Positions 7,243-64,000 of a DNA stretch of 64,000 nt are shown here, in pieces. The notes under the pieces were generated by a model. That model was given only the letters and a program-made list of their open reading frames with translations. It was not told where the DNA came from and searched no databases. Both the position numbers and the translations under genes were made by a program. Source of the stretch: Haliclystus octoradiatus (Eukaryota > Cnidaria > Staurozoa > Stauromedusae > Haliclystidae); the NCBI GenBank assembly GCA_916610825.1, contig OU744448.1, positions 22,237,032 through 22,301,031 of the forward strand. The letters run 5' to 3'. How positions within the stretch are numbered: the first letter of the stretch is position 1; every line of letters begins with the position of its first letter.

Positions 7243-8082
7243 ATGTAGACTCTGTCATCTAGCTTAGCCTCACTTACTTATATTGAATGAGAGGCTGCCT
7301 AATGGCAGGCTAAGTTGTCAGACTTGGGAGTAGCCATCTTGAATAGATATAAAACGTATATAACTGACTCTTCTATGACTTATAACATGGTGTCAGTACT
7401 ATCAGAACAATTTAATAAAATTTGGTGGCGAGAAAGAAAATCTGTACCCAATATTGGCTGTGTTACATCAGCGATGACAAACTCATGTTGGAAACGACGA
7501 TGTAATTTTGGAAGACTGATTTCAGTTCTCAATTCACCGAAAACAGAAATACTTTTACCAGAAGCAGAAATGAGTGACAATATTGAGGATGACATTGGGA
7601 GCTTACTTTGTTTGACGATAGACGTGGGTACAGTGAAACAGCCGAACCAGTATCAATTAAAAATGTAGACTCTGTCATCTAGCTTAGCCTCACTTACTTA
7701 TATTGAATGAGAGGCTGCCTAATGGCAGGCTAAGTTGTCAGACTTGGGAGTAGCCATCTTGAATAGATATAAAACGTATATAACTGACTCTTCTATGACT
7801 TATAACATGGTGTCAGTACTATCAGAACAATTTAATAAAATTTGGTGGCGAGAAAGAAAATCTGTACCCAATATTGGCTGTGTTACATCAGCGATGACAA
7901 ACTCATGTTGGAAACGACGATGTAATTTTGGAAGACTGATTTCAGTTCTCAATTCACCGAAAACAGAAATACTTTTACCAGAAGCAGAAATGAGTGACAA
8001 TATTGAGGATGACATTGGGAGCTTACTTTGTTTGACGATAGACGTGGGTACAGTGAAACAGCCGAACCAGTATCAATTAAAA
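7243..8082. repeat. Perfect 420-bp tandem duplication
   Basis: 7243-7662 is repeated base for base as 7663-8082. I compared the two copies line by line and saw no difference. The junctions share ATG microhomology. The unit contains the end of the gypsy protease region on the minus strand plus about 145 bases of flanking sequence. The absence of any divergence means the duplication is very recent, or the assembly duplicated it. Confidence 0.9.
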
Positions 8083-8182
8083 ATGCCATAGAAGGTAAAA
8101 ACGGAACATTACCGGTAATAAATAACAAAGAACCACGTTGAGAATTCACAGCCGAGAATTCAGCCGTTTCCACCGACAACGT
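7388..8182 (-). pseudogene. Ty3/gypsy retropepsin fragment (element A, 3' part)
   Basis: The minus strand reads an aspartic protease: FLIDTGSAVSLYP with the catalytic DTGS, then EFVIADVTQPILGTDFLSRH, the conserved C-terminal part of gypsy proteases. The same layout is present in the gypsy copy at 24-26.7 kb. The second half lies in the tandem duplication, so it is present twice. Nothing beyond the protease (RT, RNase H, integrase) follows at lower coordinates. This is the downstream half of the element whose gag lies at 12384-13363. The LINE at 8183-12374 separates the two. Confidence 0.75.
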
Positions 8183-18961: not shown

Positions 18962-20739
18962 GGGGCATAGCCTTGCTTTATTATACCCACGACAGTTATC
19001 TTTGCGCTTTTTAATTTCAAAATTAATTCGTTATACCATATACGCATCAGTATGTCAGTTATGTGATCATTTGCCCATAACCTGTTAAAACTGCACTTGT
19101 ATGTTTAGATAGCTTTTATTACGATTAACTCAAACTTCTAAATTAATGTAACTAGTCAATAACATTACATTGGCTTTCAGGCTTTATACCACTAAAGTAG
19201 ATACAATATATTGATTGTACCTTAAACAATGTTCTTATATAGAAGATAAATACGACACAGTTGATATAATAATCACTGAAGTATAATAATCTGCTCAGGT
19301 GCTATAGAGATCGTCTATAAGCGTACGTACTTTGACAATTAACACCACCCTCCTCCATTTACGCAGCTGTACGCTTTTCATATGACCATCCCGACCCCTC
19401 AACTGAGTACGTACTATATGACTGGCCCATTATATAATTAATAGTGGCTTGTATTTTAAAGAAGGCGCATGTTAATTTGGAGGGTAAAAAATGCACATCA
19501 CTATAGATTGCACATGAACACACAAATACAGGAATGCATTCGGGGAATGCATACATGCCTCCACTTAATCAACGGTTAGTACGGAAACACTAGTAACCTG
19601 GGACCTGACCTGGGACAAATACATTTTACAATTTGTATAGCATCTGATGGTATCAAATTTACAAATTGAGGGGCCAAGGGATGCATTTTTATTGTATAGA
19701 CCATATATAGCGTTGGTATAGACTCGCATATAGACCAGCTTTTTACTTATAACTGATACATAAATAGCATACATATTTTGATAGTTTAGCTCGAATGATA
19801 ACAGCCAACATTAGATTTGCATAGACGTAAATGTTAATGTTGTATTTCTTTTTCATTACTATATCTATGCGATATTTACAGACCTCATCATCTGATTAAA
19901 GAACCTTCGTAAGAATTTCATTTCTAGTTTACTCAGAATGATGCTGTTAGTAAACAAGATAGCACGCAAATTATGCCTGACCTCACTTTATTAAAAAACG
20001 TGATCAATAGCTGTTTTATTGTATCCGAGACAATAGAGTAATTTGATAATTGTTAACTCTTGTTTCTGTCAACAAAAGAGCGGTTCATTAAATGAAAATT
20101 ATGTAAACAAGAGCTTTTCATGTTGCCAATGAATCCATTTTCTTAATGAATGTCTATGGTTTCATCCCACTTTCACAAAGCACGAAAACGCGATTGGTCA
20201 ATCAAGCACAGCTTGACGCAGCTTGCAAGCACTAAACTGTTTCAATACGGTTTCATACATACCCTTGCAATGCAATTTCTGATATATTGTTATGACGTTC
20301 AAGACCTCATTTATATCAATCTATAGACAAAAGATGTCATTATGCTATTGCGAAAAGATTTTGTCGCTATATCACTTATCTTGAAATCGGCTTTTCGATT
20401 ACAATGTCCTGTTCGATTTGTATTTGAACACTTCAATGTACTATAGGTTATAGCCAGCTTTTGTCAGAGAATACTACAAATATGTGACCTGTGACTGTGA
20501 AGTCTACCTATGATGAAATTGATAAAAGCTCAAATACAGCGAACGTGCCTAACTTATTAAACACAAATTTTACTTCAGTCCTAATAAGCAGATAATCATT
20601 AACGGTATTTTACTCCTATATTCATCTAGAAAAGCGATTATATTGTTTGATTCATGGTTTACAAGGATTAATAATTTATTTTGTCATTGATCTTGCTCTC
20701 TCCTATAACTACAGCTTTTATATATCCAAGCCGTCAAAG
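18962..20739. other. Intergenic, upstream of the first MFS gene
   Basis: No coding or repeat structure recognised. An inverted CCAAT box (ATTGG) near 20190 and a TTTATATATCC stretch just before the start codon are the only promoter-like hints, and both are weak. Confidence 0.4.
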
Positions 20740-22155
20740 ATGGAGAGAATGAAATGTGATAAGTTTAGGAGAAGGCGCATATTAAGTTTTTGTGTTTACT
20801 TTCTTGCAAGTTTTATTTTTGGATTCGACTTCAGTTCCAGAAATTCCAAAGCAATATTTTATTTAAAGGAGTTGAAAGCTTCAGACATTCCAGTTTACCA
20901 AGGTGTATTAATTTCTACCAGCTTAGTTGTTGGATCAATCTCTGGTTTGTTATTTGGTTATATATCTGATCGATATGGAAATGCTAGAACATGTTTCTTA
21001 GTTGGTAACTCTATTGGCTTCATTGGAGTTTTGACCTACAGTATGCCTATTTCACCACCATTACTAATCGTTGGTCAATTATTGAATGGATGTGCCAAAG
21101 GAACTTTGGCTGTTGCTGTAGCAGAAATTGCTCGGATGTTTGACGGTGCTATCTTAACAAAAGCGCTATCGATATTGAACATTGGTCTTTCTGTTGGAAC
21201 TTTACTTGGTCCTTTGACAAATTTTGCATTGGTGAATATTGATATTCAATGGGGTTGGTTCTATATCCATCCTACAAATGCGCCTGGTTTTATCGTTTGC
21301 ATCTTTTTAATTATCCTACAAATATCTGCTGTTATCTTCTTGTACAATAGTGATGAGGTTCACAAGCACACGATCAATGAAAGTGGAGTTGACGAGAAGT
21401 CACAATTAATCAGCAATTCAGAAAAAAATGAAATAAAGGGCAAATATTCCAATGGAGAAGGCATAACAACAAATCTTGATGACGACAATCAAATCAGTGT
21501 TATCCAAAAGATAAAGTTTTTATTAAATAGCAACAACTTAGTGTTGGTGTATGTTGCTACGTTCATATGGACCTTTGTATTAATTTCCATGGAGGCATTT
21601 ATTCCTCTCGTTGCGGTTGATTGGATAGGATTTAATGGTATACAACTTAGTATTAGTTACATCGTGAGTGGTGCTGTATTTATCACAGCAAACTTTACAT
21701 GCACTTTTCTACAAGCATATATCAATGATTTCTATACAGTAGTTTTCTTGAGTATGGTTCAGCTTTTCGTCCCTGGATTATTGATGGTAATGCATCACAT
21801 TGAGAGCATTTCTGTGTCATCTGCTGCACTGTACTATATATGGCTTTCTATTGGCTCAACCACATGGATTTTAGAAGATGTTTTGTCAAGATCAGTAGCC
21901 TCTCGATTTGTTCCATTGAAAATGCAAGGTTTTGCAGAAGGCATGAGAACTGTTCCAAAATCACTTGGAATGGTGACAGCTGGCCTGTTTACAAGTATAT
22001 GGTTCAAATCAGTAAATGTAACATCGCCTATAATTATGATAGTTATCATACTATTAATCATATCTCTCACTTTGAAAAAGAAGCATTTAATTGATCCCCA
22101 AAGACTGCTGATGCCTCAAGAACGAAACATGAAATGCCAAATTTCTTTATTGTGA
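20740..22155 (+). CDS. MFS transporter, MFSD8/CLN7-like, paralog 1
   Basis: Intronless frame of 471 residues from ATG at 20740 (MERMKCDKF). The frame is open 31 codons further up, but the upstream start is only a TTG, and the start chosen matches paralog 2. By hydropathy there are about 12 membrane helices in two halves. They are joined by a hydrophilic loop (about residues 207-260) with many Asp, Glu and Lys. The major-facilitator motif A is at residues 73-84 (GYISDRYGNART). HPTNAPGF before helix 6 and EAFIPLVAVDW at the start of the second half recall MFSD8. The protein should sit in a membrane, perhaps lysosomal; the substrate cannot be read. Two close paralogs lie at 41.6 and 45.6 kb on the other strand. 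Lack of introns suggests retrocopy origin or ancestral intronlessness. Confidence 0.85.
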   Translation: MERMKCDKFRRRRILSFCVYFLASFIFGFDFSSRNSKAIFYLKELKASDIPVYQGVLISTSLVVGSISGLLFGYISDRYGNARTCFLVGNSIGFIGVLTYSMPISPPLLIVGQLLNGCAKGTLAVAVAEIARMFDGAILTKALSILNIGLSVGTLLGPLTNFALVNIDIQWGWFYIHPTNAPGFIVCIFLIILQISAVIFLYNSDEVHKHTINESGVDEKSQLISNSEKNEIKGKYSNGEGITTNLDDDNQISVIQKIKFLLNSNNLVLVYVATFIWTFVLISMEAFIPLVAVDWIGFNGIQLSISYIVSGAVFITANFTCTFLQAYINDFYTVVFLSMVQLFVPGLLMVMHHIESISVSSAALYYIWLSIGSTTWILEDVLSRSVASRFVPLKMQGFAEGMRTVPKSLGMVTAGLFTSIWFKSVNVTSPIIMIVIILLIISLTLKKKHLIDPQRLLMPQERNMKCQISLL

Positions 22156-41607: not shown

Positions 41608-42999
41608 TTAGACAACGTTTCGCCCATCAGGCATCAGCAATCGTTGGGGATCAATTAAATGTTTTCTTTTAACAATGAGAGCCATAGTTAATATTACGAT
41701 AACCATCAGAATAATAGGCGATGTTACATTTACTGACTTGAACCATATACTCGTAAACAGACCAGCTGTCACCATTCCAATTGATTTTGGAATAGTTCTC
41801 ATGCCCTCTGCGAAACCTTGCATTTTTAATGGAACAAATCGAGAGGCTAATGATCTTGACAAAACATCTTCTAATATCCATGTGGTTGAACCAACAGTAA
41901 GCCATATATAGTACAGTGCAGGAGATGACAAAGAAATGCTCTCGAAGTAATGCATTACCATTAATAATCCAGGTATTGCAAGCTGCGCCAAATTCAAGAA
42001 AACTACAGTATAGAAATCATTGATATAGGTTTGCAGAAAAGCGCATGTTGAATTTGCTGTGATAAATACAGCACCACTTATGATGTAGCTAATACTAAGT
42101 TGTATACCATTAAATCCTATCCAATCGGCTGCCACGAGAGGAATTAGTGCCTCCATGGAAATTAATACAAATGTCCATATAAACGTAGCAATATACATCA
42201 ATACCAAGTTGTTGTTATTTAATAAAAACTTTATTTTTAGGACAACACTGATTTGATTGCCGTCATCAAGGTTTGTCGTCATGCCTTCTCCATTGACATA
42301 TTTGACCTTTATCTCATCTTTGTTGGAATTACTAATTAAATTGGACTTCTCGTCTACTTCACTTTTGTCGATTTTATACCTGTGAATCTCATCACTGTTG
42401 TACAAAAAGATAGCAGTAGATATCTGCAGGATTATAAAAAAGATACAAACGATGAAACCAGGCGCATTTGTAGGATGGATGAAAAACCAACCCCATTGAA
42501 TATCAATATTTACCAATGCGAAATTTGTTGCAGGACCAAGTAGAGATCCTAAAGACAATCCAATGTTTAAAATCGATAGCGCCTTTGTTAGAATAGCGCC
42601 ATCAAACATCCTAGCAAGTTCAGCAACAGCAATAGTAAGCACTCCACCTGCCAACCCGTTTAGTAATTGACCAATGACTAGTAATGGTGGTGAAATAGGC
42701 ATGCTGTAGGCCAAGGTACCAATGAAGCCAATAGAGTTACCAACTAAAAAGCATGTTCTAGCATTGCCATAGCGATCACATATGCATCCAAGTAACAATC
42801 CAGAGATGGAAGCAACAACTAAGCTGGTAGAAATCAGTACACCCTGGTAAATTGGGATGTTAGAAGCCTTCAACTCTTGTAAATAAAATACTGCTTGAGA
42901 GTTCCGAGAATTGAAGTCAAACCCAAATATAAAGCTTGCGAAGAAGTAAACACAAAAACTTGATATGCGGCTGAAATTACCAGATTTCATTCTTTCCAT
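41608..42999 (-). CDS. MFS transporter, MFSD8/CLN7-like, paralog 2
   Basis: Intronless, 463 residues, starting MERMKSGNF at the ATG at 42999. It has the same plan as paralog 1: about 12 helices, motif A at residues 71-82 (GCICDRYGNART), HPTNAPGF before helix 6, a charged central loop, and EALIPLVAADW at the start of the second half. Most residues are identical to paralogs 1 and 3 by eye. The differences cluster in the central loop and the C-terminus. The leader just before the start codon (AAGCTCTCAAGGATGG) is shared with paralog 3, so the duplication included some 5' sequence. The frame is free of stops, and changes look mostly conservative, which suggests a functional gene. A possible AATAAA lies 3'. 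Confidence 0.85.
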   Translation of the reverse strand: MERMKSGNFSRISSFCVYFFASFIFGFDFNSRNSQAVFYLQELKASNIPIYQGVLISTSLVVASISGLLLGCICDRYGNARTCFLVGNSIGFIGTLAYSMPISPPLLVIGQLLNGLAGGVLTIAVAELARMFDGAILTKALSILNIGLSLGSLLGPATNFALVNIDIQWGWFFIHPTNAPGFIVCIFFIILQISTAIFLYNSDEIHRYKIDKSEVDEKSNLISNSNKDEIKVKYVNGEGMTTNLDDGNQISVVLKIKFLLNNNNLVLMYIATFIWTFVLISMEALIPLVAADWIGFNGIQLSISYIISGAVFITANSTCAFLQTYINDFYTVVFLNLAQLAIPGLLMVMHYFESISLSSPALYYIWLTVGSTTWILEDVLSRSLASRFVPLKMQGFAEGMRTIPKSIGMVTAGLFTSIWFKSVNVTSPIILMVIVILTMALIVKRKHLIDPQRLLMPDGRNVV

Positions 43000-43719
43000 C
43001 CTTGAGAGCTTAATATATATATGTATGAAGGAAGATGCTAATCAGATACTATTAAGTAGCTGTCTTGTGGTTGTCTCGTGTAAATAGTATTCAACAAAGC
43101 AAAGATGTTAATGCAATTATATAGCGTGTTCACAATGTTTACTAGTCTTTGTACTGAGCAAAAATTATCAAAACATCATGTTTTGCTAAAAAACAATAGC
43201 TCACAATTCTACATTGTAGAGAAGTATTCACTTTAACTGCATGTAAATATGTTCCCCTGCTGTTTATACAACCTTCTTTTATACAAAATCTTGTTGAAAT
43301 AACTCTAAGTAGCCAATATTTAGATGTTGCATGTCTTCATCTTCCGACGGATCTATGAGCTGCAACATGACAAACTTCCTATCAAATAGAAGACGATTTT
43401 CCGGACATGGTCATAACATTTTTCTTTCGAATTTGATAACTATATCTTCAATTTTTTTCGAAACTAAGGTTTCTTTGTCACAATCATCGCGCTACGGTCT
43501 GTCAAACTCCTCTAAATCTGATAGCGGTGGCCAAGATAAACAGTACATGCAATAATTTAAATAACAATGAGAACAATGCAAGTGTGAATTTTTTCAATCA
43601 TTCCACAACATGCTGTTATGCCAACGACGAGTCATACTCCAGTGACTGAACGAAAATAAACAAAGGAAGAAGTCGCATGAGTTTGTAAACAAATCGGGAA
43701 ACAAATATATGAATCTGAA
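43000..43719. other. No gene; broken coding-like stretch on the minus strand
   Basis: On the minus strand about 43545-43290 reads like protein (VIKFERKML, FVMLQLIDPSEDEDMQHLNIG) but carries several in-frame stops. It may be a decayed transposon or host fragment; nothing is recognised. Confidence 0.3.
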
Positions 43720-45562: not shown

Positions 45563-46993
45563 TCATTCAACAGGCATCAATAGTCTTCGGGGATCAATAA
45601 GAGCATTCCTTTTCATAAATAGGACTATGGCGAGTAGAATGATAATTATCATAATTATTGGCGATATCACATTTACTGACATAAACCATACACTTGTAAA
45701 CATGCCAGCTGTCATCATTCCAAGTGATTTTGGAACAGTTCTTAAGCCTTCTGAAAATCCTTGCATTTTCAACGGAACAAATCGAGAGGCTAATGATCTC
45801 GACATAACATCTTCTAATATCCATGTGGTTGAGCCAAAAGTAACCCAGAAATAGTACAAAGTAGCAGATGACATTGAAATGCTCTCATTATAATGCATTA
45901 CCATTAATAATCCGGGTATTACCAGTTGTAAAATACTCAAGGAAATCACAGTATAGAAATCATTAATGCAAGTTTGCATTAAAGCGCATATTAAATTTGC
46001 TATGATGAATACACCACCACTTATGATGTAACTAATGCTAAGTTGTATACCATTAAATCCTATCCAATCAGCTGCCACGAGAGGAATAAATGCCTCCATA
46101 GAAATCAATACAAAAGTCCATATAAACGTAGCAATATACACCAATAATAAGTTGTTGTTATTTAATAAAAACTTCACTTTAAAGATAACACTGACTTGAT
46201 TGCTAGCATCTAAGTTTGATGTTATTCCTTCTCCATTAGAATACTTGACATGAATCTTGACGGTATCTGAGTTATTGATCAAATTTGACTTTTCATCAAC
46301 TTCCTTTTCGTCGATTTTACACTTGCAAACTTCATCACTGTTGTACAAGAAAAGAACAGCAGCAAGTTGTAAAATTATGAGAAGGATGCAAACAATGAAA
46401 CCAGGCGCATTTGTAGGATGGATGAAAAACCAACCACATTGAATATCAATATTTACCAATGCAAAATTTGTTAAAGGACCAAGTAACGTTCCCAAGGACA
46501 CACCAATGTTTAATATTGATAGCGCTTTTGTTAGAATGGCATCGTCAAACATCTGAGCAAGTTCTGCCACAGCAACAGTAAGCACCCCTTTTGCACATCC
46601 ATTCAGCAATTGTCCAATTATTAGCAAAGGAGGTGAGATAGGCATACTATAGATCAAAGTACCAATGAAGCCAATAGAGTTACCAACTAAAAAGCATGTC
46701 CTAGCATTGCCATAGCGATCACATATATATCCAAGTAACAACCCAGAGACTGAACCAATGACTATACTAGTAGATATTAATACACCCTGGTAGGCTGGAA
46801 TATTGGAAGCATTTAACTCTTGTAAATAAAATACGGATTGAGAATTTCTGGAATTGAAGTCGAAGCCAAATATAAAACTTGCAAAAAAGTAAACACAAAA
46901 ACTTGATATGCGTCTGAAATTACTAGACTGTATTTTCTCCATCCTTGATAGCTTGACATATAGAGCTGCACGAAGCTGATCAATTTTTACCAT
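45563..46993 (-). CDS. MFS transporter, MFSD8/CLN7-like, paralog 3
   Basis: Intronless, 476 residues from ATG at 46993, or 459 from the second ATG at 46942 (MEKIQSSNF), which aligns with the start of the paralogs and is the safer choice. Motif A lies at residues 88-99 (GYICDRYGNART) counting from the first ATG. The helices, HPTNAPGF segment and EAFIPLVAADW match the other two. One notable change is a Cys for Trp in IDIQCGWFFIHP. The stop of this gene and the start of paralog 2 are 2.6 kb apart on the same strand, with a LINE fragment between, so the two arose by local duplication. Likely a membrane transporter of unknown substrate. Confidence 0.85.
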   Translation of the reverse strand: MVKIDQLRAALYVKLSRMEKIQSSNFRRISSFCVYFFASFIFGFDFNSRNSQSVFYLQELNASNIPAYQGVLISTSIVIGSVSGLLLGYICDRYGNARTCFLVGNSIGFIGTLIYSMPISPPLLIIGQLLNGCAKGVLTVAVAELAQMFDDAILTKALSILNIGVSLGTLLGPLTNFALVNIDIQCGWFFIHPTNAPGFIVCILLIILQLAAVLFLYNSDEVCKCKIDEKEVDEKSNLINNSDTVKIHVKYSNGEGITSNLDASNQVSVIFKVKFLLNNNNLLLVYIATFIWTFVLISMEAFIPLVAADWIGFNGIQLSISYIISGGVFIIANLICALMQTCINDFYTVISLSILQLVIPGLLMVMHYNESISMSSATLYYFWVTFGSTTWILEDVMSRSLASRFVPLKMQGFSEGLRTVPKSLGMMTAGMFTSVWFMSVNVISPIIMIIIILLAIVLFMKRNALIDPRRLLMPVE

Positions 46994-48078
46994 TTGATCT
47001 CGTTTATCTTATTTGCATTAATGGGTATAAAATGCAGGTAATGGGAATGAAAACCCCCACGTAATATATCTGAACACTATAGCTGTATACAGTTAACCTT
47101 TGATCAGATTTGTAGATTTCGGAGCAAAGGCAGGTTATTCCAAAATTTAAATGCTCATACTTTCATAATTCCAATGAAAATATTCTCCTAATATCCATTC
47201 AATGCTTGAGGATAGTCCTTTGTGAAAAGATAATCTGATCGTATTTACAGGATCAAAATCGGAGGACAATGACTCTATATTCTACACCGGAGAATTACCG
47301 GTCTGCGAAGATAATCTGTTGCTGTGTACATGTTCTGTAAAAGAGAGATATGGAAGATATTGGTTTGCCTCGATGGATTACAACAAGTAGATATCATTTA
47401 AGCTGAGGCTTGGTTTAGCCTGGATAATAACCATATCAACATATTTGTTGTTCTATTCATACATTATTGTTGATTGTTGGTTACATTTATATTAAAAGAT
47501 AAAAACTCCCACTAATTTGCATTAATCACTCTTCATGGCATCTGGCAGGTATAAATATTACTCAAAACTTGAGCAATTAGAAAGAACTACAACTTTTAGT
47601 TAACTCTTAATAATTATTGAATGAGGTAGAGCGCGACATTGAGGAATATCAGACCCGCGGTTAGTTATGTTGTCGAATTCTGTGATTTATGGAATATCGT
47701 GTTTGGCTTCATGCTACTTTAATTCCAACACCTTAGAATAATTTCCCAAATGATTATTCCATTATTTATAATCATAGTCATTTCGCTCTCTACAAGAGTA
47801 TTGGCTTTGCAGTAACTCATGAAATTTTATACTCACAAGGTCTAATATGTGTTATAATGTGGCTCATCTACTCAGTGACATCGTAAATTCGTTAGAGTTA
47901 TCAAAATAAGCTATTGTTGCTCTATCATGATATGAGTTTAATGTAACATAGTTCAATGGAGGTGCACGCTACGCCTTTATTATGGTTTGGATAAAGTACT
48001 TTGCACTTTTGTGTGACAATTTTAGACTTTGGTGAACCCTCCAAAACTACAGGTTTTTTTGGGAATGATTCTATATAT
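46994..48078. other. Intergenic, upstream of MFS paralog 3
   Basis: No gene or clear repeat. The promoter of paralog 3 should lie in the first few hundred bases, but no sure element was seen. Confidence 0.4.
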
Positions 48079-49260: not shown

Positions 49261-50053
49261 GTGAGTTTTTGTCGCTATCTTTCGTACTAAAGTGTTTTTC
49301 GAAGAAACTTTTAATTACTACATACATAAAAAAGTATTAATTTACATTTCCAATCATAAAGCTTCCGTATCTGTTGGTGTTTGTGATCGATATTGGCTAT
49401 TGCATATACATCACATATTTGGTACTACTTAGTGTATATGCTACGTATCCAATGACATAATTATTTATACCTAAATAAAAGAATAACGTCATACTGCGGT
49501 CAAAGTACGGATGCAAGTGAGTTACATATTACTGTGTTTAGAAGGTTGTACAACAGCCACAGCATTTTTGTGTAAGATAGCACATCCACGTCATTGCTTT
49601 TTCTTCATTGCCATTGATTATATGATACGCAGAATCCTCAGTCACTAAAAACGATACGATCAAAATCATGAGGTGAAATTTTTGTTATTCTACTACACCG
49701 CATTCATTCATAAATGAATGCATATTTTTACTATTTTCAAATGAAAAAACATGTTATTGTTACATATTTAAACTATTTTTCATTTCAAACATCTCAAGTG
49801 TCCATTAGAATTTAATGGGCTATTAGAAAGGTTCTATGCTGAGCTAAGAATTAAACATCGGCAATAATATGAGCCAGAGTCATAAAACGTGATGCTTTCC
49901 TACAGAGAAGATATCTAAAAGAAAATGGATATCCTCTTTGATCAATAATTAGAAACAGAAATGATTCAACTTCAAAAAGGAAAGTTTGAAAGGAGTGGAA
50001 CGGAAAGTATGGTGGGTTTTATGAACATTTATTCAGTTATATGTACTAAAAGC
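49261..50053. other. No gene seen
   Basis: AT-rich DNA. The five bases AAAGC at 50049-50053 are the left target duplication of the gypsy element that follows. Confidence 0.5.
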
Positions 50054-50311: not shown

Positions 50312-51700
50312 CTAACAGGATTCAATTAATCTATGTGGTGGTTTAATAGACCGTCCGGACCTTGTTGTAGTATTTCCAGTTAGTGCTAAGTTGCCTGGTT
50401 GAGCTGTAGTGCTATTTTGCAATGGTGATTCTGCTGTATCATTCTTGGCTTCCATATCTTGTGTCATTTGAGGTGACATGGGTGCATCATTTGGTACAGA
50501 TATTAGTTGACGTCGATTTCTTCTGAAAACTTTCCCACGGTTGTCCACCAGCATATATGACCTTGGTAATATTTCTGCTTTCCTCCACTCTGCAGAACGA
50601 TGTCGCTTTACTCTCACTTTCTCACCCTCAGCAAGAGGAGGTAAATCTTTAGCATTGGTATCAAAATGCTTTGCTGATTTTTCTTGACGTTGTTTCAAAG
50701 CCTTCAACACATGACGCGGGGTGACTACTTGGGGTATTAATAGTCGGCGATGTGTTGGCAATGTTGTCTTGGTTCGTCTTCCCATCAATAATTGTGCTGG
50801 TGATAACCCAATATCATCAAACGGAGTGTTTCTGAAGTTCAATATTCCTTCAAAGGGGTCATTTCCAGATTTGTAAGCTTTCTTAAAAATCCTCTTGCAT
50901 GTCTGAACCGCACGTTCAGCAGCTCCATTCGACTGAGGATATTCAGGGCTGCTTGTTGTATGAGTAAATCCCCAGCTTTGAGCAAAAACTTTGAACTCAT
51001 GTGACGTAGTAAAAAGGTGCTGCGTGTTGCTATACTGTGGACCATTGTCGCTAAATACTTTTTCTGGAATTCCAAATCTAGCAAAGATCTTTTTCATGTT
51101 AATAATAACACACTTGGCTGTTGGCTCATTCAGCTTCTCTACTTCGAAGAATTTGGAGTAGAAGTCAGTGACAAGTAAGAAGGTATCTCCAGCGTAGCTA
51201 AAGAGATCACTACCAACGGATTGCCACGGTAAGCCAGGGATGTCATGGGGCATCAATGTTTCCTTCTGTTGATGATGCCTAAAAGAATTACACACTCCAC
51301 AAGAAGACACCATCTCTTTTATCTGAGCAGAGATTCCGGGCCAAAATACGTACTCTCTGGCAAATGACAGACTTTTATTTACTCCCATGTGACCTGCATG
51401 GATATCATTTAGTGTTTCACGTCGCAATGCCCTTGGAACAACTAGTCTATCGTGTTTAAGAATCATACCATCCTCTATACTTAGTTCTTCTCTGTATTGC
51501 CAATATTCTCTAGCGAGTTCGTCCACATTTTCTTTGTCTGGCCAACCATTAATTATATATTTAATAATCGTTTGAGAGATTTCATCATTTGTAACTGCAG
51601 TTCTAAATGAATCAATCGATCTAGTCCTCATTCCCAAATTTGAAACCAGATGTACGTAAATTTCAGGAACTGGTTTGTCTGTACACAAAGGACTTTCCAA
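50312..51700 (-). CDS. Gypsy C integrase frame
   Basis: About 460 residues, open but without an ATG at its head (the first codon is TTG). It overlaps the preceding frame by about 70 bases in the -1 phase. The integrase zinc domain HAGHMGVNKSL...CGVCNSF is followed by the DDE core: Asp in GSDLFSYAGDTFLLVTDFYS, Asp in FSDNGPQYSN and Glu in SPEYPQSNGAAERAVQ. A C-terminal basic tail ends with TRSGRSIKPPHRL. No chromodomain is seen. It must be made either by -1 frameshifting from the gag-pol frame or not at all. No standard slippery heptamer is visible in frame near CCAGTTTGGAAAG, so a one-base loss is possible. Confidence 0.9.
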   Translation of the reverse strand: MESPLCTDKPVPEIYVHLVSNLGMRTRSIDSFRTAVTNDEISQTIIKYIINGWPDKENVDELAREYWQYREELSIEDGMILKHDRLVVPRALRRETLNDIHAGHMGVNKSLSFAREYVFWPGISAQIKEMVSSCGVCNSFRHHQQKETLMPHDIPGLPWQSVGSDLFSYAGDTFLLVTDFYSKFFEVEKLNEPTAKCVIINMKKIFARFGIPEKVFSDNGPQYSNTQHLFTTSHEFKVFAQSWGFTHTTSSPEYPQSNGAAERAVQTCKRIFKKAYKSGNDPFEGILNFRNTPFDDIGLSPAQLLMGRRTKTTLPTHRRLLIPQVVTPRHVLKALKQRQEKSAKHFDTNAKDLPPLAEGEKVRVKRHRSAEWRKAEILPRSYMLVDNRGKVFRRNRRQLISVPNDAPMSPQMTQDMEAKNDTAESPLQNSTTAQPGNLALTGNTTTRSGRSIKPPHRLIESC

Positions 51701-54267
51701 ACTGGTGATCGACTCAAGCAGTCTGAGAGAATTTGATCCTTCCCAGGGACATAGGTCACTTTTAAATCATACTGGGTGAGTTTCAGTAACATTCTCTGTA
51801 ACCGTGGAGGTGCATCATTAAGATTTTTTCTGAAAATGGCTTCAAGAGGTTTATGGTCAGTTTGAACTGTGACAGATCTTCCATAAATATACGAGTGAAA
51901 TTTCGAAACTCCCCAAACAATTGCTAAGAGTTCTCGTTCAATGTTTGCATACCTGGTTTCGCATTCTGTAAGCCTCCGAGAACCATATGCACAGGGTTTA
52001 CCATCTTGGAGAAGCACAGCACCAAGTCCTGTACAGCTATCATCCACACTCAATGTTGTAGGTGTTTTCTCACAAAAATATGATAACACTGGAGCATTTG
52101 CAATAACACTTTTGAGTGAGTCAAATGCTGTCTGTTGTGCAGAGTCCCATACAAAAGCTGCTGTTTTCTGTGATAGTTTTGAAATGGGTCCTTGTAGGTC
52201 GGCTTTATTCGGTATAAACTTGTCCAAGTAATTAATTGTCCCTAGAAACCTTAGTACTCCTGCTTTATCTGTGGGAGCAGGCATTTCTTGGATAGCATGA
52301 ACTTTGTCTGGATCAGGTTTTATTCCATTACATGACAATACATGACCAACGTAACGTACTTCAGGTAAGTTGTATTTAATTTTTTCAGAATTAAATTTTA
52401 GTTTCACCTCTCTGGCTCGTTCTAAAACAAGGCGGAGCTTGTTGTCAAGTTCTTCTGTGTCTTTTCCGAATATTAAAAAATCATCTACAATTATTTCAAC
52501 TGGTATTCCTTCGAACAAGCGGTCCATCTCTTGTTGATAAATCTCTGGGGCGGGTGCAATTCCAAAAGGGAGGCGCAAAAATCGATACCCTCCCAATGGA
52601 GTATTAAAGGTAAGGAGTTTAGAGCTACTGTCATCAACTGGTAGTTGCCAATACCCACTGCATGCATCTAATACAGCAAATACTTTGGCACCATCTAGAC
52701 GAGATGCAATATCCTCAATGGTAGCCATTGGATAATGTGCTCGCTTCAAGGCTTTATTTAAATCACGTGGATCAATACAAATCCTGACATCTTTCTTAGT
52801 TGGTTCTTTACTTACTTGTGTGCTCTTTCGCTTGTCTACAACAACCATCGATGATACCCATGGTGTGTGGTTTGTTTCTTTGACAATGATACCCATTTTC
52901 TCCATATCAGCTAATTTCTGTTTAACAGGATTCATTAGTGCCAATGGTATTTTTCTTGGTGCATGAACCACTGGTGTTACATTTTCGTCAATTTCTAACT
53001 TTACCCTGCGTGGCAATGTTCCTGGCTGTTCTGAGAAACAATCCTTGAATTCATCTATAATTGATATCTTACTACTGTCATGAGTGCATTTAATTGAATC
53101 TAAATTCATGAAGCTCAACACTTCCAAGTCAATGCAGGCATCACAACCAAGCAGTGGCGTAAAATTTCCATCAACAACAAGGTAATTCAATAATACTTTC
53201 CGACCTTTATACTCCGTTAGTAGGCGAACAGAGCCTTTAGGATGTATTGCTTTTTCTGCCAACCAACCCCTGAGAGGTTGCTTCGCTTTTTTCAATGGCT
53301 TGTTAGTAATGTTCTTGTAAAGGGAGTAGGGAATTACAGTGGCATCAGCACCAGTATCTGCTTTAATTTTCACTTCTTTGTTTGCTACAATAATAGTAAC
53401 CATACTTTTCTTGGTTTTCGTTCTTGAAACTGGGGCAAGCTCAACAGAACCAAAGTATAAACTTCTACCAGAATCACTATCTTCGTCACTGGAATTGTCA
53501 ATAGTGATATTTGCAACAACTTGTTTTGCAGAACTCTGCTGTGTGCACATTTTAGCAAAATGTCCGGTCTCTTTGCATCGTTTGCACTCTTTCCCAACAG
53601 CCGGACATTTCGATTTTTTCATGGCATGATGGTACCCACAAAATTTACATTTGGAGAATTTTTCTTCCTTCTTGTGTCCTATGGCATTCACGGTTACTGT
53701 ATTGTCTGCTCGTGTGGACGTATTAAACAATCGCTTCTGACTCTCACTAGCTTCATATGTTCTACAAAATTGATGTGCAGTTATTAACGTTAAATTGGGC
53801 TTTTTCAATAACTCTCCACGAAGGTCATCTGACCTCACACCACCAACAATTCTATCTCTGATCAAAGAGTCACGTAAGACATCAAACTCACAGGTGAGGG
53901 CCAATCTTTTTAAATCACTCACAAATGTATCAATCCTTTCTCCATCTGATTGATATCGGGAAAAGAAAACAAATCGTTCATAGATCACATTACTGGCACC
54001 TTGACATAGATCTTGGAATTTCTTACATACATTTTCAAAATTATCTCCACTTTCACCTTCAGCATAGGTAAAATGACTGTATTCCTCAATTGCCTCAGGT
54101 CCAGCAAAATTGAGAAGCATATTAACTTTCAGTTTATCTGATTTGTCATCTTTCTCTTTAGCTATAAGATATATGTCAAACCTCATTTTGAATCTTCTCC
54201 AATTGTCTGCAGCATTTTCATCAAACACCAATGGACCAGGCTTGGATAATTCACTTGAGCTTGCCAT
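51628..54267 (-). CDS. Gypsy C gag-protease-reverse transcriptase-RNase H
   Basis: 879 residues from the ATG at 54267 (MASSSELSK); a GTG 10 codons upstream is less likely. Gag fills about residues 1-200. Two zinc knuckles follow at about 207-221 (CKFCGYHHAMKKSKC) and 228-241 (CKRCKETGHFAKMC). The protease active site is at about 304-308 (DTGAD). RT carries WVSSMVVVDKRKS, VFAVLDACSGYWQLP, LPFGIAPAPEIYQQ and the catalytic VDDFLIFG. RNase H has TTLSVDDSCTGLGAVLL and QTDHKPLEAIF, ending PGKDQILSDCLSRSP. Gag and pol are one frame, so no frameshift is needed between them. All catalytic residues are present; the frame has no internal stop. Confidence 0.93.
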   Translation of the reverse strand: MASSSELSKPGPLVFDENAADNWRRFKMRFDIYLIAKEKDDKSDKLKVNMLLNFAGPEAIEEYSHFTYAEGESGDNFENVCKKFQDLCQGASNVIYERFVFFSRYQSDGERIDTFVSDLKRLALTCEFDVLRDSLIRDRIVGGVRSDDLRGELLKKPNLTLITAHQFCRTYEASESQKRLFNTSTRADNTVTVNAIGHKKEEKFSKCKFCGYHHAMKKSKCPAVGKECKRCKETGHFAKMCTQQSSAKQVVANITIDNSSDEDSDSGRSLYFGSVELAPVSRTKTKKSMVTIIVANKEVKIKADTGADATVIPYSLYKNITNKPLKKAKQPLRGWLAEKAIHPKGSVRLLTEYKGRKVLLNYLVVDGNFTPLLGCDACIDLEVLSFMNLDSIKCTHDSSKISIIDEFKDCFSEQPGTLPRRVKLEIDENVTPVVHAPRKIPLALMNPVKQKLADMEKMGIIVKETNHTPWVSSMVVVDKRKSTQVSKEPTKKDVRICIDPRDLNKALKRAHYPMATIEDIASRLDGAKVFAVLDACSGYWQLPVDDSSSKLLTFNTPLGGYRFLRLPFGIAPAPEIYQQEMDRLFEGIPVEIIVDDFLIFGKDTEELDNKLRLVLERAREVKLKFNSEKIKYNLPEVRYVGHVLSCNGIKPDPDKVHAIQEMPAPTDKAGVLRFLGTINYLDKFIPNKADLQGPISKLSQKTAAFVWDSAQQTAFDSLKSVIANAPVLSYFCEKTPTTLSVDDSCTGLGAVLLQDGKPCAYGSRRLTECETRYANIERELLAIVWGVSKFHSYIYGRSVTVQTDHKPLEAIFRKNLNDAPPRLQRMLLKLTQYDLKVTYVPGKDQILSDCLSRSPVWKVLCVQTNQFLKFTYIWFQIWE

Positions 54268-54360
54268 TATTTTATCACAATTTTTATAGAAGATCACTTA
54301 CTGTAAACAATCAGTTTGCAACAAATCTCCAACATTAATAGAAGTATAACACAGGTACTT

Positions 54361-55578: not shown

Positions 55579-58500
55579 CACCCCATTTTTCATCTTCGTT
55601 TATAACAAATGTATTACTAGGATACCAACTAGCACTGATTGTGATATCAGTTGCTGCTAGAAAAGTATGTTTAACCAAAGCAATGCTTTGTTCTTGTTTA
55701 CTAACACCAACCCATTTACCATTTTTTAATCGTTTCAGATACATTTGAAGACTAATATGAACAGCATATACTGTGCTAGAATCGTAATCATAGCCAACCA
55801 TACCAACAACATACTGAGGTAGACCTGAAGCGAAATGGTATCAATAAATGTTTTATAGCTTATTTTACACAAAGGCAACAACAATGTCTTATATGCAACT
55901 GGAAAGGACGATTATTTATTGATTAAGACTGAGTGTAAACGTTTAGATTATTGCCTGATTGCAAGCATTTAATGAATCAGACTGTCAAACTTTGTGAGAA
56001 TTGTTTTTCAGTAAAGTTGATCTACATTTGTACAAATAGTGGAAGACCCTTTTTTCTGTTTGCTCGTAAATGTAACTATATAAATAGGTAAACTCAATAA
56101 AGTCATGATTGTTATATTATACAGAAATATTAAAATATTTCACATGCAATATTATGATCATAAAATAACACAGTTATCAAAGATGATACGATTCAGAAAA
56201 TCGTTTCCAGATTCCGAATAATAACTATGCAAATAATAATTATTCCACCTTTCAGATAAATAGATTTCAACGATATTAAATATGTTTCACTTAAAAGCAC
56301 GACGTAGAAGAACCTGCGTGAACTTGATAAAGCAAAATGATGAATTTTTCGAAATTTTCAAAGAAATCATTGTGCGACTTTTGAAGCATTTTGGGAGTTC
56401 ATTGATTTGTTAACGGAATTTTGCACAATGACAACATTGACCTCATTGGAGGCAGCCTATTGGTGTCAGCTCTGCGTATGCACAGAGCTTCCGAATTGAG
56501 TAGTCTAACTTTGGAATTCTCATTTTGAATTCCTGTAGGATTTTTCTGAAATAATCCAATTTCTATTGCTTCACAGTAAGACATCTGTTCGGCGACATAT
56601 GAAATCATTCTAACTGACTCTCATTTATTTAACGTCACTGTATGTTATCTTTTTTGTCTTCATCAATGATAATTGTAACTCATCTAGCTGTAAATCGACG
56701 TTGTTAGGTAGCCAGTTTACACAAAACTTGACTCATCTATTTTGTCAAAATAGAATACTTTTACTGCAGTATTTCATTTTCTTGCCATGAAGTATTCTTT
56801 TTTTAATTTGGACTTTTATACTTCTTCGATTCTTCAGGCATAGAGTAGCTTCAGATCGTATTGTTTATTTTAATTATTCAAATTAAAACTGTTATTATTC
56901 ATCTGTAATTAAAATTTCCACGTGAGTCAAAACTAATTTGAAATCCATAAATTTGAAATTCATGTTACTCATGATTTAACTTGTATAAACAGATTCATCA
57001 AATCATTTTATTTAACTGTATTATTTTATCCTAAAACAGGGATGAGTGAGTGGTTGCAGGTATTTATATCTCCCCTGCAACCAAGACCTTCGTTGGAGTA
57101 GGGAACTGATCATGCTCAACAAATTTGGTGATAACTTATATCCGTGCTTTTCTGTCTCATGCCATCTAGTCTCATCAATATTGATTCTTTCATTTTATCA
57201 TCGCATTCGCATTTATCTGAACCATCGTAATTATAGTGGTACTATGTTTGTTCACTTTCTTTTTTTCCATTACAATATAATTGCTAAGGATTTAAAAGAA
57301 ATGATAATTTAGCCTTCGGAACACAACGGATTTTGATAGAACTTTGTTCTATCCGTACATGACAATGTTGCGGTTTTGCATAGCTCGACTCTTTCTCCGT
57401 TATGATTGGCCTTGAATATGTGATTATGTATTTTATCGTGTCCCACTTTTTGAAACAAAAAAGGAACGATAAAATTTACCACAAGATAGTTTGAGCGTAA
57501 TTATTTTGCTGAAAGAGGGATCGTTTTACTTTTTTTTCCATTAACGATTTAACTGTTCATCCTGACCCTGCTAGCTATAGTTTTTGTAAACTTATAGTAT
57601 ACCATATTCAGCACCGAGAATTCAGCAACACGATAAGCCTGCCGATGTAATAATTGTATAGGCCTATAGCTCTTTTGGAATGCGTTATATATGAAAAGTA
57701 GCTAGCAAGATCGGGATGAACAGTTAAATATGTATTGAAAATAAAGCAATTAAACCGTCTTTCGTTTTGCCTGTACCAATTAAACCGTACGATGTTGTTC
57801 GAAAATAACGGTCAAACTCCCACGATGATAAATAATTTCCGTCCCTTTATGGTTTCAAAAAGTGGGACATGAGAATCTCCAAAATGCCATGCTCAAGATC
57901 AGTTTTGACGGTAAATCACTCAAAAACGCAACAGTGACATGTACGGATAGAAAAAAAATTCTAGCGGAATCCATTGGGTCCAAAAAGGAGATATGTCCAA
58001 GGTGAGAACTCTGATAGGGACACGTTTGAAATTGATAACACTGATTGTACTCACGGTTCTAATGTGACTACGATTGCGTGATGACACGTTTTCACTTGCT
58101 CTTGAATTTTTTATGTTTTCATATGTTTATAATTTTTTTTTTTTTTTAATTCTGAGAGAATACTGTACTGTTATATATAGTATATCTTATTTATCATGAC
58201 TGGTGGAAAAGCCTGTGTTATTTGTAAGAAAAAAAATATCGCAGGGAATTCTTTAGATGCTTTACCATGTGTACACTGTGATAAATGGTGGCACAAGGCA
58301 TGTTCAATTACTCACAAAGATTGCACAGCTTTAGAAATTGAGGTATTACAAAAATATCCTACATCTTGCTCACTATGTTATGATTCATTAAAAAATCTAC
58401 CGGTGAGATTGGATAGCCTTGAAAAAAAGTTTGAAGATTTTACAGAAAGTTTTAAAACGCAGACAAGCTCTAGCAGCACTGGTGTTGCGAAATCTTATTC

Positions 58501-61500
58501 TGAAGTAGCGTCACAAGATGGTGCTAACGTAGACTTAAACAAAGTTATCAAAGAAGCCGTCGCCATTAGTAACAACAAGAGACAGCTAATAATGGCTGGA
58601 GTCCCCTTTATATCTCAGGAGTTTGACAAACAAAAAGTTAATCAGATCGTGTCGTTTGTTTGTGGTTCCAATGTTCAAATAACTGGAATTACCAGAGTTG
58701 GTAAACCACCCACTGAGAAGGGTGCAACTAACAAGCCTCAATTAATTAAAATCCAGTTGGTATCCCAAAATGATAGAGATGTTATTTTGAGATCTGCCGG
58801 TAAACTGAAAGACTCAGAAAATTTCCCTGGTGTTCACATTCGTCAGTGCTTGACATTTAACGAAAGACAAATTTTACAACCTTTGTATGATGATTTAAAA
58901 AAAAAAATTTCAAACGCTGCCCCTGGTGAGCGTTATGTAATTAAACGAAGAGGCGACGTCTCAAATTGGACCATCGCTAAACAAAACGCCAGAGTACTTA
59001 TTCGAGAAGAAAACGTATTTGCGGAAAACATTGATCAAATTCCACAATGATGGTCACAGGCAAGCAAAGATAATTGTTTTTTAAAGTTTTATTATTTTAA
59101 TGCACGCTCATTAATGAACAAATTGGATCTTTTTGATTGTCTACTTTCATCTAATCGTTATGATGTCATTGCTATAACAGAGACATGGTTGAAATGTTGT
59201 GTGCCTGACTCGCTAATTACCCAACGTGATTATCAAGTACTTAGAAAAGACAGAATTACATCAACTGTTGGGGGTGGTGTTGCAATTTTAATACGCAAAG
59301 ATTTGAAAGTTACTACTGTTGACATCCCGTCTACTTTTCACGCTCTTGAATATGTTGTGGCTGATATACACATATCAAATATCGGATATCGTTTAGTTTG
59401 TTTGTACAATCCTCCTTCGTCGGCTTTGTCTTCCACTGAAGTGAATTTACTGTGTTTATTTATTGACTTTGTTAGCACCGATAGTGCTTTTCCAGTTGTT
59501 GTTATTGGCGACTTTAATTTTCCTTGTATTGACTGGTCAATTCCTAAATCTCATGGATCTTCAAATACTACAATGTTTTTAGACGGTATTGTTCGAAATG
59601 GACTCAATCAATTTGTTACCTCGCCTACCAGAAATGATGAAATTCTTGACCTTGTTTTTGTTCCCAAGACAATGCTATTTTTTGCACTGAAGTTACCGAA
59701 CCATTCACGTCTACTTGTGATCATCAGTCTATTGAATTTAACCTAGCTGTCAGCAACTATAGTAATGACCGCTTCCCTAAATCAAAACCTACTAAACGTC
59801 GAAATTTTTATAAAGCAGATTATGATTCTATTAATTCCTACTTGTCTACCATAAATTGGATTGATATGTTACAGGAAAGTCAAAATGATGTTCAAACTTT
59901 TTGGAATAAAATTTGCGATATTCTCAACTTATCTACTTCAAAATATGTACCGTTGTATAAACATAATTCTAATCGTAAACCCAATTATCCTAAAAACATT
60001 CGATTACTCCGTTGCAAAAAGAAGTCCTTGTACAAATCGTCTAAAGAATCTCCGTGTAAAAAGAAATTGTATAAAGATACATGCAAAGATTATGAAAAGG
60101 CAGTAAAAAAGTTTCATCATGATTACGAAGCCTCGCTACTAGTTGACCCCTCATTAAAAAAATTTTACGCCTTCGTTAAAGGTAAAACACAATCTAACTC
60201 TACAATTCCTGCTATTGTCAAAAATGATCTTTCTGTTACTACAGATGACAAAGAGAAAGCAACTCTTATCAATGAATATTTTGCTAGTGTTTTTACACAG
60301 GACAATAACAGCATACCTAACATTCCAGACTCGGCTAACGAAAATACTTCATTGAATTTCATTGAGTTCTCTTTCGAAAAAGTTTACAAGACATTATCTT
60401 CCTTGCCCACAAAAGTATCTCGAACACCAGATGACTACCCACCAATATTTTTCAAAGCAATAGCCTCTGAGCTTACTATTCCTTTATCTATGTTATTTGA
60501 ATTGTCATTAAAAACCGGCATTCTACCTGATATCTGGAAACAAGCATTAGTTTCGCCAATTTTTAAGAAAGGTGACGTAGCTTCCCGTAGTAATTATCGA
60601 CCCATATCGTTAACCTGCATCTGTTGCAAAGTTATGGAACGTATCATTGTAGATGACCTACTAGTTTATTTAAATGAAAACAATATCTTATCTGATCGAC
60701 AGTATGGCTTTCTCAGAAAGCGTTCTACTTGTAGTCAACTGTTAAAGACTTTAAATGATTGGTATGATTCAATTAACAAACGCTCACGTGTCGATGTTGT
60801 ATATATAGACTTTGCTAAAGCATTTGACACTGTTACACATTCAAAACTCTTAGCCAAATTAGAATCTTACGGCATCAAATACGAACTTTTTGAATGGATT
60901 AAATCCTTTCTTTCTGGTCGTTCGCAAAGCGTCATTGTATCTGATGAAATCTCAAGTTCTCTCCCAGTTTCCAGTGGTGTCCCACAGGGTTCTGTGTTAG
61001 GACCGCTACTTTTTTTACTTTATGTTAATGATATTGAGAGCTGTTTGGATGGTTTGTGCGAAGTACGTCTGTTTGCAGACGATGCAAAATTTTTTATCGC
61101 TCGAAATGATTCTTCCCCTGTCAATGCACTCACAACATCGTTAGATAAATTTACAACATGGGCCGAAAGCTGGCAACTGAGAATTGCTTATGATAAATGT
61201 AGTACAATATCCTTTGGTACATCCAACGCAAGTGAGCTTGATTATTTCCTCGGGAGTAACAAACTGAAGCAAACAGGAAAACTTCGTGACCTTGGCCTCA
61301 TCATTACTTCAGATCTTAAATTTTCTACTCATTGTTCTTCTATCTCCGCTAAAGCTAAAACAAGATCTTACCTTCTACTGAAATGCTTTACCTCAAGCAA
61401 TGCACAATTACTTATTAAAGCATATACTACCTATGTACGACCTCTATTAGAAAAAGACACCCAACTATGGAGTCCTTATTTACAAAAAGACATTGATTTA

Positions 61501-63772
61501 ATTGAATCAACTCAAAGACGTTTTACTAAATATGTGTGTTCTAGAGCAAGATTAAAAGATAATGGTTATCACAGTCGTTTGGCCCTGTTTGAAATTGAAT
61601 CTTTAGAAATCCGTAGAATTAAATTTGATTTATGCATGGTGTACAAAATTATAAATAATCTAATTGACTTTCCTGATAATATTTTTATAAAACGAAACAT
61701 AAGTAAACTTAGAGGACATTCTATGCAATTCGTTGCATGTTCAATACCTGTAAATAATTCAATTTTTTATTCCTTTTTTTATCGCATAATTCCATTATGG
61801 AATCAGTTACCGGATGAAGTAGTGACTTCTTCCTCCTTAATTACCTTTAATTCAAAATTACATAAGATTGATTTAGATTGCTATTTGAAGCACTCTCATT
61901 AGGCTGCACATCAGTGCAAATTATATTACTATATAATTTCCCATTGCTTGCCTGTACAAAAAATTACCATTTATGGTTTATTTTTTTTGCAAATATATGA
62001 AATGAAAATGAAATGAAATCGTCTTAATTAAATTGTATATGAACGATAAAATCGTAAATGTGTGACACGAATTGTGGAATACAAATAAAAAGATTGAGAG
62101 CAACCACAAAGAATATCAATTAATTCCGAAAACAGAACATATATAGAAGATTAGCCTTCACTTACCAATCCAAGCTGTTAAATTATTGCTCGGATTTATC
62201 ACTCCTCGATAACATGTTCCTGATAATTTACTGAAAGCAATACAAATATGTGTGAAGGCAGTCAGAAATATAATTGATGATTCATCAGGAATATTGCACA
62301 ATTCTAACCCTCACCTTTGTTGTTTAGAACGAATACTTTTACAGAGAAAAAATTCTTTTGTCTCTGTAACAGGCAATGCAGATCCTTCGTAATTTCTTAT
62401 AGGTCCATTCAATGGTGCGCCTAAAAGGAAGCATATATCTCAGTTATAAAAAATACTCAGTTATGATTATTTACAATGAGCATGGAGAGAAACCCAAAGA
62501 AAGAAACAAATCAATTCCAAACGATGTAAATATGTTTTTGAAAATAGTATCTTGTTTATTACAAGTTAATAAATTGCGACTTCACCTTTTGGAAACTTTC
62601 TTTGCTTAAGGACAGAGGAATTCTTGACTGATGAAAACGATGTAATACATAGAGGTAAAATGTTTGTTGTCTACATGTATAGGATAATTAATGTAATATT
62701 ACCTCTGTAACAAGCTTGCATGATTTTAATTTTACACCATCCACGGAGACTGCATTCAATTTTCTTGCTGTTACCAAGATAGATAGAACTAGGTAACACA
62801 GTCACAGAGAAATCAAGGTCAGGACGACTCAGGCATAGCGAGGTATCGTCATTATCACATTCAGCAAGTTTCCACGAATATTTCCAATTTCCTGAAAAGG
62901 ATCAAGATGGGAGAAATGTGAAATGCACATAAATACACATCTGTAATAATTAACTTATTTGATTCCAGTAATCTTACTTGTATAAATAGCAGGAGTCAAT
63001 AGAAACCACCTTTGATTTATGAAAGAAACATCTTCAAACAAATCAATACAGGATTTAGTTTTGCAAGAGAGTATACCTTGTAGCCCGTTTAATCAGCCGT
63101 TTAATCTTTTGCAGTAATATAGGACTAATAGGATCCGTGTAGAAAGTTCATAATAGACATATATTGAAACATGTTACTAGTTATACTTCTAAATATTTCG
63201 TGATCTAGTTTTTGTTCATCTACTTCTGTAGTTGTCGCTTTTCATATAGTTTTTGAAACTTGATAAATGTCTATTATGGAGCACTAAATTGTAGGCGAAG
63301 GGTCAATCTGAACTTTGGCTGATAAAAAAGCACTTCAAGATATAAATCCTAGTACAACGTGAAACATTTATGGAAACACACCAATCACTGTTTTAAATTT
63401 CAGATGTCAACCATCATATAGTTCTATTTTAAACCTCAATGTGAAAAAAAATCTTAATTGCTAGTATGCTCTGTATATCTCCGTGTTGCACAGATGAAAA
63501 TAATAGTATGGAGTTTCATCGGAGTTTCATTTGATACTTACCATTCCCAGATGTTTCATACGCTCTTGATATGATTTGATTTCTAAACCAAGCCAAGTAG
63601 AAGTTACCTTGATTAACTGTCTTAATCGAAACGGTTGTCAGACTATTCTCAACACTGTTGATAAGGAAGTATTCTGAGTCTGCGATGTCAGTGGAAAGAC
63701 GAAGGGTTCCAGTGCCTCGAGTTGTTGCTAAGTAACGATTGTTGATCGTGACTAACAGCCTAACTGGACACT
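55579..63772 (-). CDS. Partial multi-exon host gene, secreted or extracellular-type, five exons
   Basis: Exons on the minus strand: A 63772-63542 (CTTCCAG|, AATG|GTAAGTA), B 62891-62703 (TTTTCAG|, AGAG|GTAATA), C 62363-62315 (GTTACAG|, AAAG|GTGAGG), D 62230-62166 (TTTCAG|, ATTG|GTAAGTG), E 55824-55579 (GCTTCAG|, GGTG|GTAAGTA). Phases agree throughout; A, B and E are symmetrical 1-1 exons (77, 63 and 82 codons), the pattern of shuffled extracellular modules. Exon A reads like a beta-strand repeat unit (LLVTINNRYLATTRGTGTLRL, a possible beta-trefoil). B to D hold eight cysteines (for example CSLRGWCKIKIMQACYR and GTCYRG). E is Cys-free and beta-rich. No family is recognised. Both ends run out of view. 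The 6.3-kb intron D-E contains a CR1-type LINE in antisense. Confidence 0.65.
57329..57985. repeat. Foldback of dispersed repeat R26
   Basis: The left arm 57329-57520 and the right arm (inverted) 57795-57985 are both copies of the repeat at 26772-26962. Shared words include TCTATCCGTACATG, CTTTTTGAAAC and AGTTTGA. The arms are separated by about 270 bases without coding capacity. It lies in the large intron, next to the CR1 element. Confidence 0.75.
58196..59050 (+). CDS. CR1-type ORF1 with PHD-like zinc finger
   Basis: 284 residues from ATG. Residues 8-61 carry the cysteine/histidine pattern C-x2-C, C-x2-C-x4-HKAC, C-x2-C (CVICKKKN, CVHCDKWWHKAC, CSLCYDS), a PHD-like finger common in ORF1 of CR1-clade LINEs. 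A coiled-coil stretch follows (RLDSLEKKFEDFTESF). The C-terminal part (KRQLIMAGVPFIS, then HIRQCLTFNERQIL) resembles an RNA-recognition-like domain. The role is expected to be RNA binding. The frame is intact. Confidence 0.85.
   Translation: MTGGKACVICKKKNIAGNSLDALPCVHCDKWWHKACSITHKDCTALEIEVLQKYPTSCSLCYDSLKNLPVRLDSLEKKFEDFTESFKTQTSSSSTGVAKSYSEVASQDGANVDLNKVIKEAVAISNNKRQLIMAGVPFISQEFDKQKVNQIVSFVCGSNVQITGITRVGKPPTEKGATNKPQLIKIQLVSQNDRDVILRSAGKLKDSENFPGVHIRQCLTFNERQILQPLYDDLKKKISNAAPGERYVIKRRGDVSNWTIAKQNARVLIREENVFAENIDQIPQ
59051..61902 (+). pseudogene. CR1-type ORF2 (endonuclease-RT), one frameshift
   Basis: The endonuclease reads FNARSLMNKLDLF, AITETWLK, VVIGDFNFPCIDW and LDLVFV. After a single frame change at the run of T near 59680 it continues CDHQSIEFNL, the expected SDH-type motif. 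RT runs to 61902: SRTPDDYPPIFFK, NYRPISLTCICCKVMERI, VVYIDFAKAFDTVTH, GVPQGSVLGPLLFLLYVND and the active site LFADDAKFF. Everything except the one-base shift is open, so this is a young copy with a simple lesion, or the shift is a sequencing error at a homopolymer. Confidence 0.9.
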
Positions 63773-64000
63773 CTGGAAGATAATTATAGTGTAAGTTTTT
63801 ATATCAGAAACTACAATACTGGTTCTTAATAACGACAGTTATATACAATTAAATTGGATTCTCGATAAGTACATTTGCGTATGGTCAACATGAAAGTAGA
63901 TGTTGATGTGAGTTCTCGGATGCAAATTTCATTTCATTAAAATTTGATTTAAGCTACATAATATATCAGTTATAATGCAATATCTCAATTCCAAAAATGA
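63773..64000. other. Upstream intron of the host gene
   Basis: Begins with the acceptor of exon A (TTATCTTCCAG on the minus strand). No further exon is visible before the window ends. Confidence 0.5.

Follow-up and report, generated by a model that had tools for sequence, protein, structure and literature searches.

Five exons in a 64,000-nt stretch of chromosome C4 of a stalked jellyfish (the window, meaning the whole of the DNA that was analysed) raise the question of what kind of gene they belong to. The original prediction read them as a gene in its own right, extracellular in type, built of phase-1 modules and belonging to no recognised family. They make up five of the six final exons of a larger gene (gene 1). 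The acceptor of exon A and the donor of exon F are internal splice sites with exons on either side, and a stand-alone gene of five exons is therefore rejected. What had been taken for a gene is a gene tail: the window contains another exon on its 3′ side, and a minimum of 16 lie past position 64000, 16 of the 22 modelled exons being located there.

The exons of the window and their paralogues

The exons themselves are as they had been described. A, E, C, D and F are all present on the minus strand, are bounded by AG acceptors and GT donors, and give a single open frame when joined. The three symmetrical 1-1 modules—strand-rich, cysteine-rich and cysteine-free—were recognised correctly in A, E, and F, with C and D being 1-2 and 2-1 exons, and both the phase-1 modular build and the extracellular type were rightly assigned. 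When the whole host genome was searched (261,861,806 bases in 33 contigs), each of the three modules was found in two other places, with E-values of 3.5e-27 and 4.8e-16 for exon A, 1.3e-12 and 5.2e-9 for exon E, and 9.2e-44 and 1.3e-21 for exon F. These copies are all on C4, in the same order and with matching boundaries, in two paralogous genes (genes 2 and 3), and it is this repetition of order and boundaries that places the exons beyond chance. Evidence for the splice junctions likewise comes from conservation in these two paralogues, which takes the place of spliced RNA reads. In exon alignments, exon A is 65% identical to its counterpart in gene 2 and 47% to that in gene 3.

Table 1. Positions of the exons, gene models and neighbouring elements (window numbering unless a contig is named).
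Feature	Position	Strand	Phase	Description
Window	C4:22237032-22301031			64,000 nt
Gene 1		-		70,204 bp; 22 exons; 1,497 codons + stop in a single open frame
Exon A	63542-63772	-	1-1	17th of 22 modelled exons; strand-rich module of 76 whole codons with one cysteine
Exon E	62703-62891	-	1-1	Cysteine-rich module; five cysteines
Exon C	62315-62420	-	1-2	Counterparts in genes 2 and 3
Exon D	62166-62230	-	2-1	Counterpart in gene 2; in gene 3 best-scoring candidate only, tentative
Exon F	55579-55824	-	1-1	No cysteine; best conserved exon
Last coding exon	49538-49644	-		Stop codon; five cysteines near C terminus (CCGCC); counterparts in genes 2 and 3
Gene 2	about C4:22383222-22421644	same as gene 1		22 exons; 38,423 bp; 1,502 codons + stop
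Gene 3	about C4:22567452-22611213	opposite to gene 1		Model less complete
LINE-like element	58181-61902	+		Intron between D and F
Gypsy-like element	50312-54297	-		Intron between F and last exon
Gypsy-like copy	about C4:22568972-22572439			Gene 3 region; 60-73% identical
Transporter-like gene	20596-22155	+		Single frame
Transporter-like gene	41608-43041	-		Single frame
Transporter-like gene	45563-47008	-		Single frame
Tandem duplication	7243-8085			420 bases; 2.0 copies; 100% match

The gene models were obtained by cross-comparison of open frames, listing of splice sites, joining of exons, and a further search for the second half of the second discoidin domain (D2). The three paralogues lie on one chromosome and together span ~325 kb. 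Genes 1 and 2 have identical phases at 22 of 22 exons, and all three genes carry a stop codon in the last exon. In gene 3, the second half of D1 and the first half of D3 were searched for and not found. The same holds for the first, signal-peptide exon of gene 1, where the candidates had no mutual similarity, and further upstream homology was looked for and not seen. When the protein of gene 2, comprising both the tail and the discoidin part, was compared with the genome, at least 39 matches were obtained (39 of the 46 candidates scored), all of them within the three loci. A prokaryote origin was also considered and rejected: a peptide pattern matched 15 stretches of genome_contigs, none of which codes for a relative.

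The comparison of genes 1 and 2 over 1,177 aligned codons from 18 exons gave a pN of 0.265 and a pS of 0.656, and corrected values of 0.326 (dN) and 1.558 (dS). The resulting overall dN/dS of ~0.21 is only rough, because synonymous sites are near saturation, but its direction is clear, and it indicates that the gene is under purifying selection. Gene 1 is very probably a real, selected extracellular gene with discoidin repeats. Exon F stands apart in this comparison, with a pS of 0.317 against 0.656 for the 18 exons. Its high identity to gene 2 stops at the exon edges, similarity in the flanking introns being at or barely above random. Gene conversion between the copies (ectopic and limited to the exon) or a constraint on the RNA could explain this low value.

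Discoidin domains in the N-terminal half

The N-terminal half of the encoded protein holds F5/8 type C (discoidin) domains, recognised by the Pfam family PF00754 in the multi-domain proteins of gene 1 (E 2.6e-12, 47.4 bits), gene 2 (2.9e-16, 60.2 bits), and, for D4–D6, gene 3 (2.5e-18, 66.8 bits), all of which exceed the curated cut-off of 28.2 bits. Gene 1 is inferred to hold six such domains, in the order D1–D6, each encoded by two exons with phases 1-0-1. Tested singly, only D5 exceeds the curated cut-off (E 3.5e-7), and D2, D4, and D6 stay below it (0.0019, 0.018, and 0.03, respectively). No PF00754 match was found for D1 and D3 on their own, so that their status as domains rests on position and exon layout. 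The Pfam names that these two did return, Dala_Dala_lig_N (0.048) and DUF5009 (0.17), were discarded as chance-level hits below the cut-off. Comparison of the domains by hhalign, with two or three sequences for each, found D5 and D6 to be related (probability 70.6, E 3.9e-5). With the same depth, D3 and D4 were not convincingly related to other domains, and comparisons between modules inside the gene gave nothing besides the D5–D6 pair. The likeness to the family lies in significant matches in three paralogues and in a two-exon layout with outer phase-1 introns, whereas most single domains remain under the curated cut-off, and, as far as tested, no relationship to PF00754 extends to the middle or C-terminal region.

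The claim that the gene belongs to no recognised family consequently fails for the gene, given the F5/8 type C domains of its three copies, and stands for the tail, which has no significant match in Pfam or the PDB. The discoidin exons start ~10 kb past the end of the window, and were therefore invisible in the first analysis. Modules that seem to lack a family in one window may, accordingly, form the end of a protein that can be recognised by informative domains beyond that window.

A genome-wide scan for PF00754 by single exons yielded at least 150 matches to F5/8 type C (150 of the 260 candidates scored), many of them clustered on the contigs C2 and C8, which suggests that the discoidin repertoire is expanded in this genome. 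Gene 1 is not among these matches, because an intron splits every one of its discoidin domains.

The middle region and the C-terminal tail

The discoidin array is followed by a middle region of ~305 residues, encoded by four exons (phases 1-0-2-0-1), and by a tail of 313 residues. Against gene 1, identity in the middle region is 52% for gene 2 and 30% for gene 3, and in the tail 68% and 45%, respectively. Genes 1 and 2 each have an odd number of cysteines, 13, from exon A to the end. The profile search of the spliced protein, which had been proposed as a check of the original prediction, thus assigned the N-terminal part to F5/8 type C and gave no significant family for the tail. A Pfam search with the middle region and the tail returned nothing below E 0.15, and profile searches against the PDB gave best E-values of 1.7 for the tail and 0.15 for the middle region, both to unconvincing molecules, and of 0.33 for exon F joined to the last exon. 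That the modules fit no known family is, therefore, borne out for A, E, and F, for which neither Pfam nor the PDB holds a significant match. The predicted structure of exon F (pLDDT 58.7; best PDB fold match E 0.78) is uninformative.

Several candidate identities were rejected. The Pfam names BBS2_GAE (E 0.15, in one of three members), DUF6976 (0.17), and ISP1_C (0.15) are chance-level hits below the cut-off. A DM9-like reading of C and D found no match in the PDB profile search and no such family in Pfam, and an internal repeat in the beta region was not supported by alignment of the modules with hhalign.

Exon A had been proposed as a possible beta-trefoil. Its strand-rich pattern is shared with trefoils, and A and E together, with ~139 residues, have the size of a trefoil; six cysteines in sum and three readable groups of strands are the reason why both exons may form one domain, possibly a single trefoil. 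However, they show no threefold repeat signal, since 77, 167, and 90 of 300 column shuffles reached the observed lobe–lobe scores, and no significant PDB match by sequence. The model of exon A alone, predicted by AlphaFold from an alignment of three rows, has low confidence (mean pLDDT 59.7, pTM 0.44), and none of its 177 PDB matches at E ≤10 reaches 0.001 (best 1.2), which leaves the fold unproven. In many true trefoils, repeats are likewise not visible in the sequence.

Proposed function and rival explanations

The reading that best accounts for these features, and the one judged probable, is that of a secreted protein of matrix or adhesive type, similar in kind to sea-urchin Nectin and ending in a C-terminal region that matched no known family. 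No clear membrane helix was recognised, as the highest 19-residue Kyte–Doolittle means reach 1.65 (gene 1) and 1.73 (gene 2), and secretion is considerably more likely than anchorage; for the putative adhesive or matrix role itself, the chances are about even. Gene 1 would thus code for a large multi-domain protein of the stalked jellyfish, probably secreted, of which the window exons encode the C-terminal part. Its discoidin domains, arrayed next to one another, may bind glycans, collagen, or membrane surfaces multivalently and so with high avidity, while its C-terminal part, made of beta-rich modules and a cysteine-rich end with an odd number of cysteines, could link molecules into a network through disulphides. 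Likely sites would be the surface coat, the mesoglea, or the adhesive secretion of the peduncle and anchors; the adhesive regions of Stauromedusae are described as rich in glands (PMC5088631).

Sea-urchin Nectin is described as a secreted adhesive protein with six tandem discoidin domains and a proposed dimerising cysteine (PMC10057474). Both proteins are thus multi-discoidin, with six domains in Nectin and six inferred in gene 1 (four by Pfam); a cysteine-based joining of molecules is proposed for both, and the product of gene 1 is probably secreted as well. Unlike Nectin, which has 984 residues, gene 1 holds diverged domains, two of the six without a Pfam match, and ~620 extra residues follow them that are absent from Nectin. 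The two are likened by architecture and not by sequence. A mode of action like that of Nectin may reasonably be conjectured by analogy. Its identity as a Nectin is not claimed, because the tail differs and the comparison rests on architecture.

The alternative that the open frames are degenerate or artefactual, as in a pseudogene broken by retroelements, draws on the length of the modelled gene (70 kb) and on the retroelement-like open frames in two of the tail introns, but it is very improbable in view of 22 out of 22 exons that are open and in phase, with good splice sites and a stop at the end only, of the identical phases in gene 2, and of purifying selection. More weight is due to a cell-surface protein of recognition or immunity, whose discoidin domains would bind microbial or allogeneic glycans and whose tandem paralogues would represent diversification. 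Discoidin domains are glycan binders, the three paralogues are clustered and share 45–68% identity in their tails, and the domain, with its 150 or more matches, is widely used in this genome. Nevertheless, a membrane helix was not found, the copies are only three, and the rough overall dN/dS shows no rapid change, which makes this reading unlikely.

Somewhat less likely still is a protein of the egg coat, the nematocyst capsule, or another specialised extracellular structure, as opposed to a general matrix or adhesive protein: the modular secreted architecture and the cysteine-rich end would suit covalently linked extracellular structures, but Pfam reported neither minicollagen nor ZP nor any other signature domain. 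The reading of a secreted matrix or adhesive protein can also be taken further, although only tentatively, in that the middle region, A–E, C–D, F, and the CCxCC end might be new domain families limited to stauromedusae or medusozoans, combined with discoidin repeats in these three genes only, which would define a class, not described before, of matrix or adhesive proteins joined by covalent links. Among the papers searched, no title or abstract opening describes a gene of this kind from Haliclystus or any other stauromedusan, which is not proof of absence. The trio of multi-discoidin paralogues with a tail that matched no known family is, in any case, a concrete and testable candidate in an assembled genome.

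Some further features were noted in the window and in the rest of the genome. The LINE-like element of the D–F intron holds a PHD-finger-like ORF1 and frames resembling an endonuclease and reverse transcriptase, as judged by eye, and the Gypsy-like element of the following intron has long open frames. Three genes of 477–519 residues, located close together, were recognised by eye as vesicular-amine-transporter-like (MFS), and a perfect tandem duplication is also present (Table 1). The genome includes a mitochondrial contig (C33, 18,316 bases), in which the COX1 frame continues across eight TGA codons, and where ARAGORN reports two tRNAs, Met and one with the anticodon tca, to which the bacterial code gives the label SeC and which is interpreted here as Trp. 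The remaining mitochondrial genes of this contig were recognised by eye, as was a frame resembling a DNA polymerase, and medusozoan mitochondrial genomes show such a gene set. Near one end of the contig (C33:10001-18316), two near-identical stretches lie on opposite strands (translations 6221-6421 on the plus and 7344-7544 on the minus strand), an arrangement consistent with inverted repeats of a linear mitochondrial genome.
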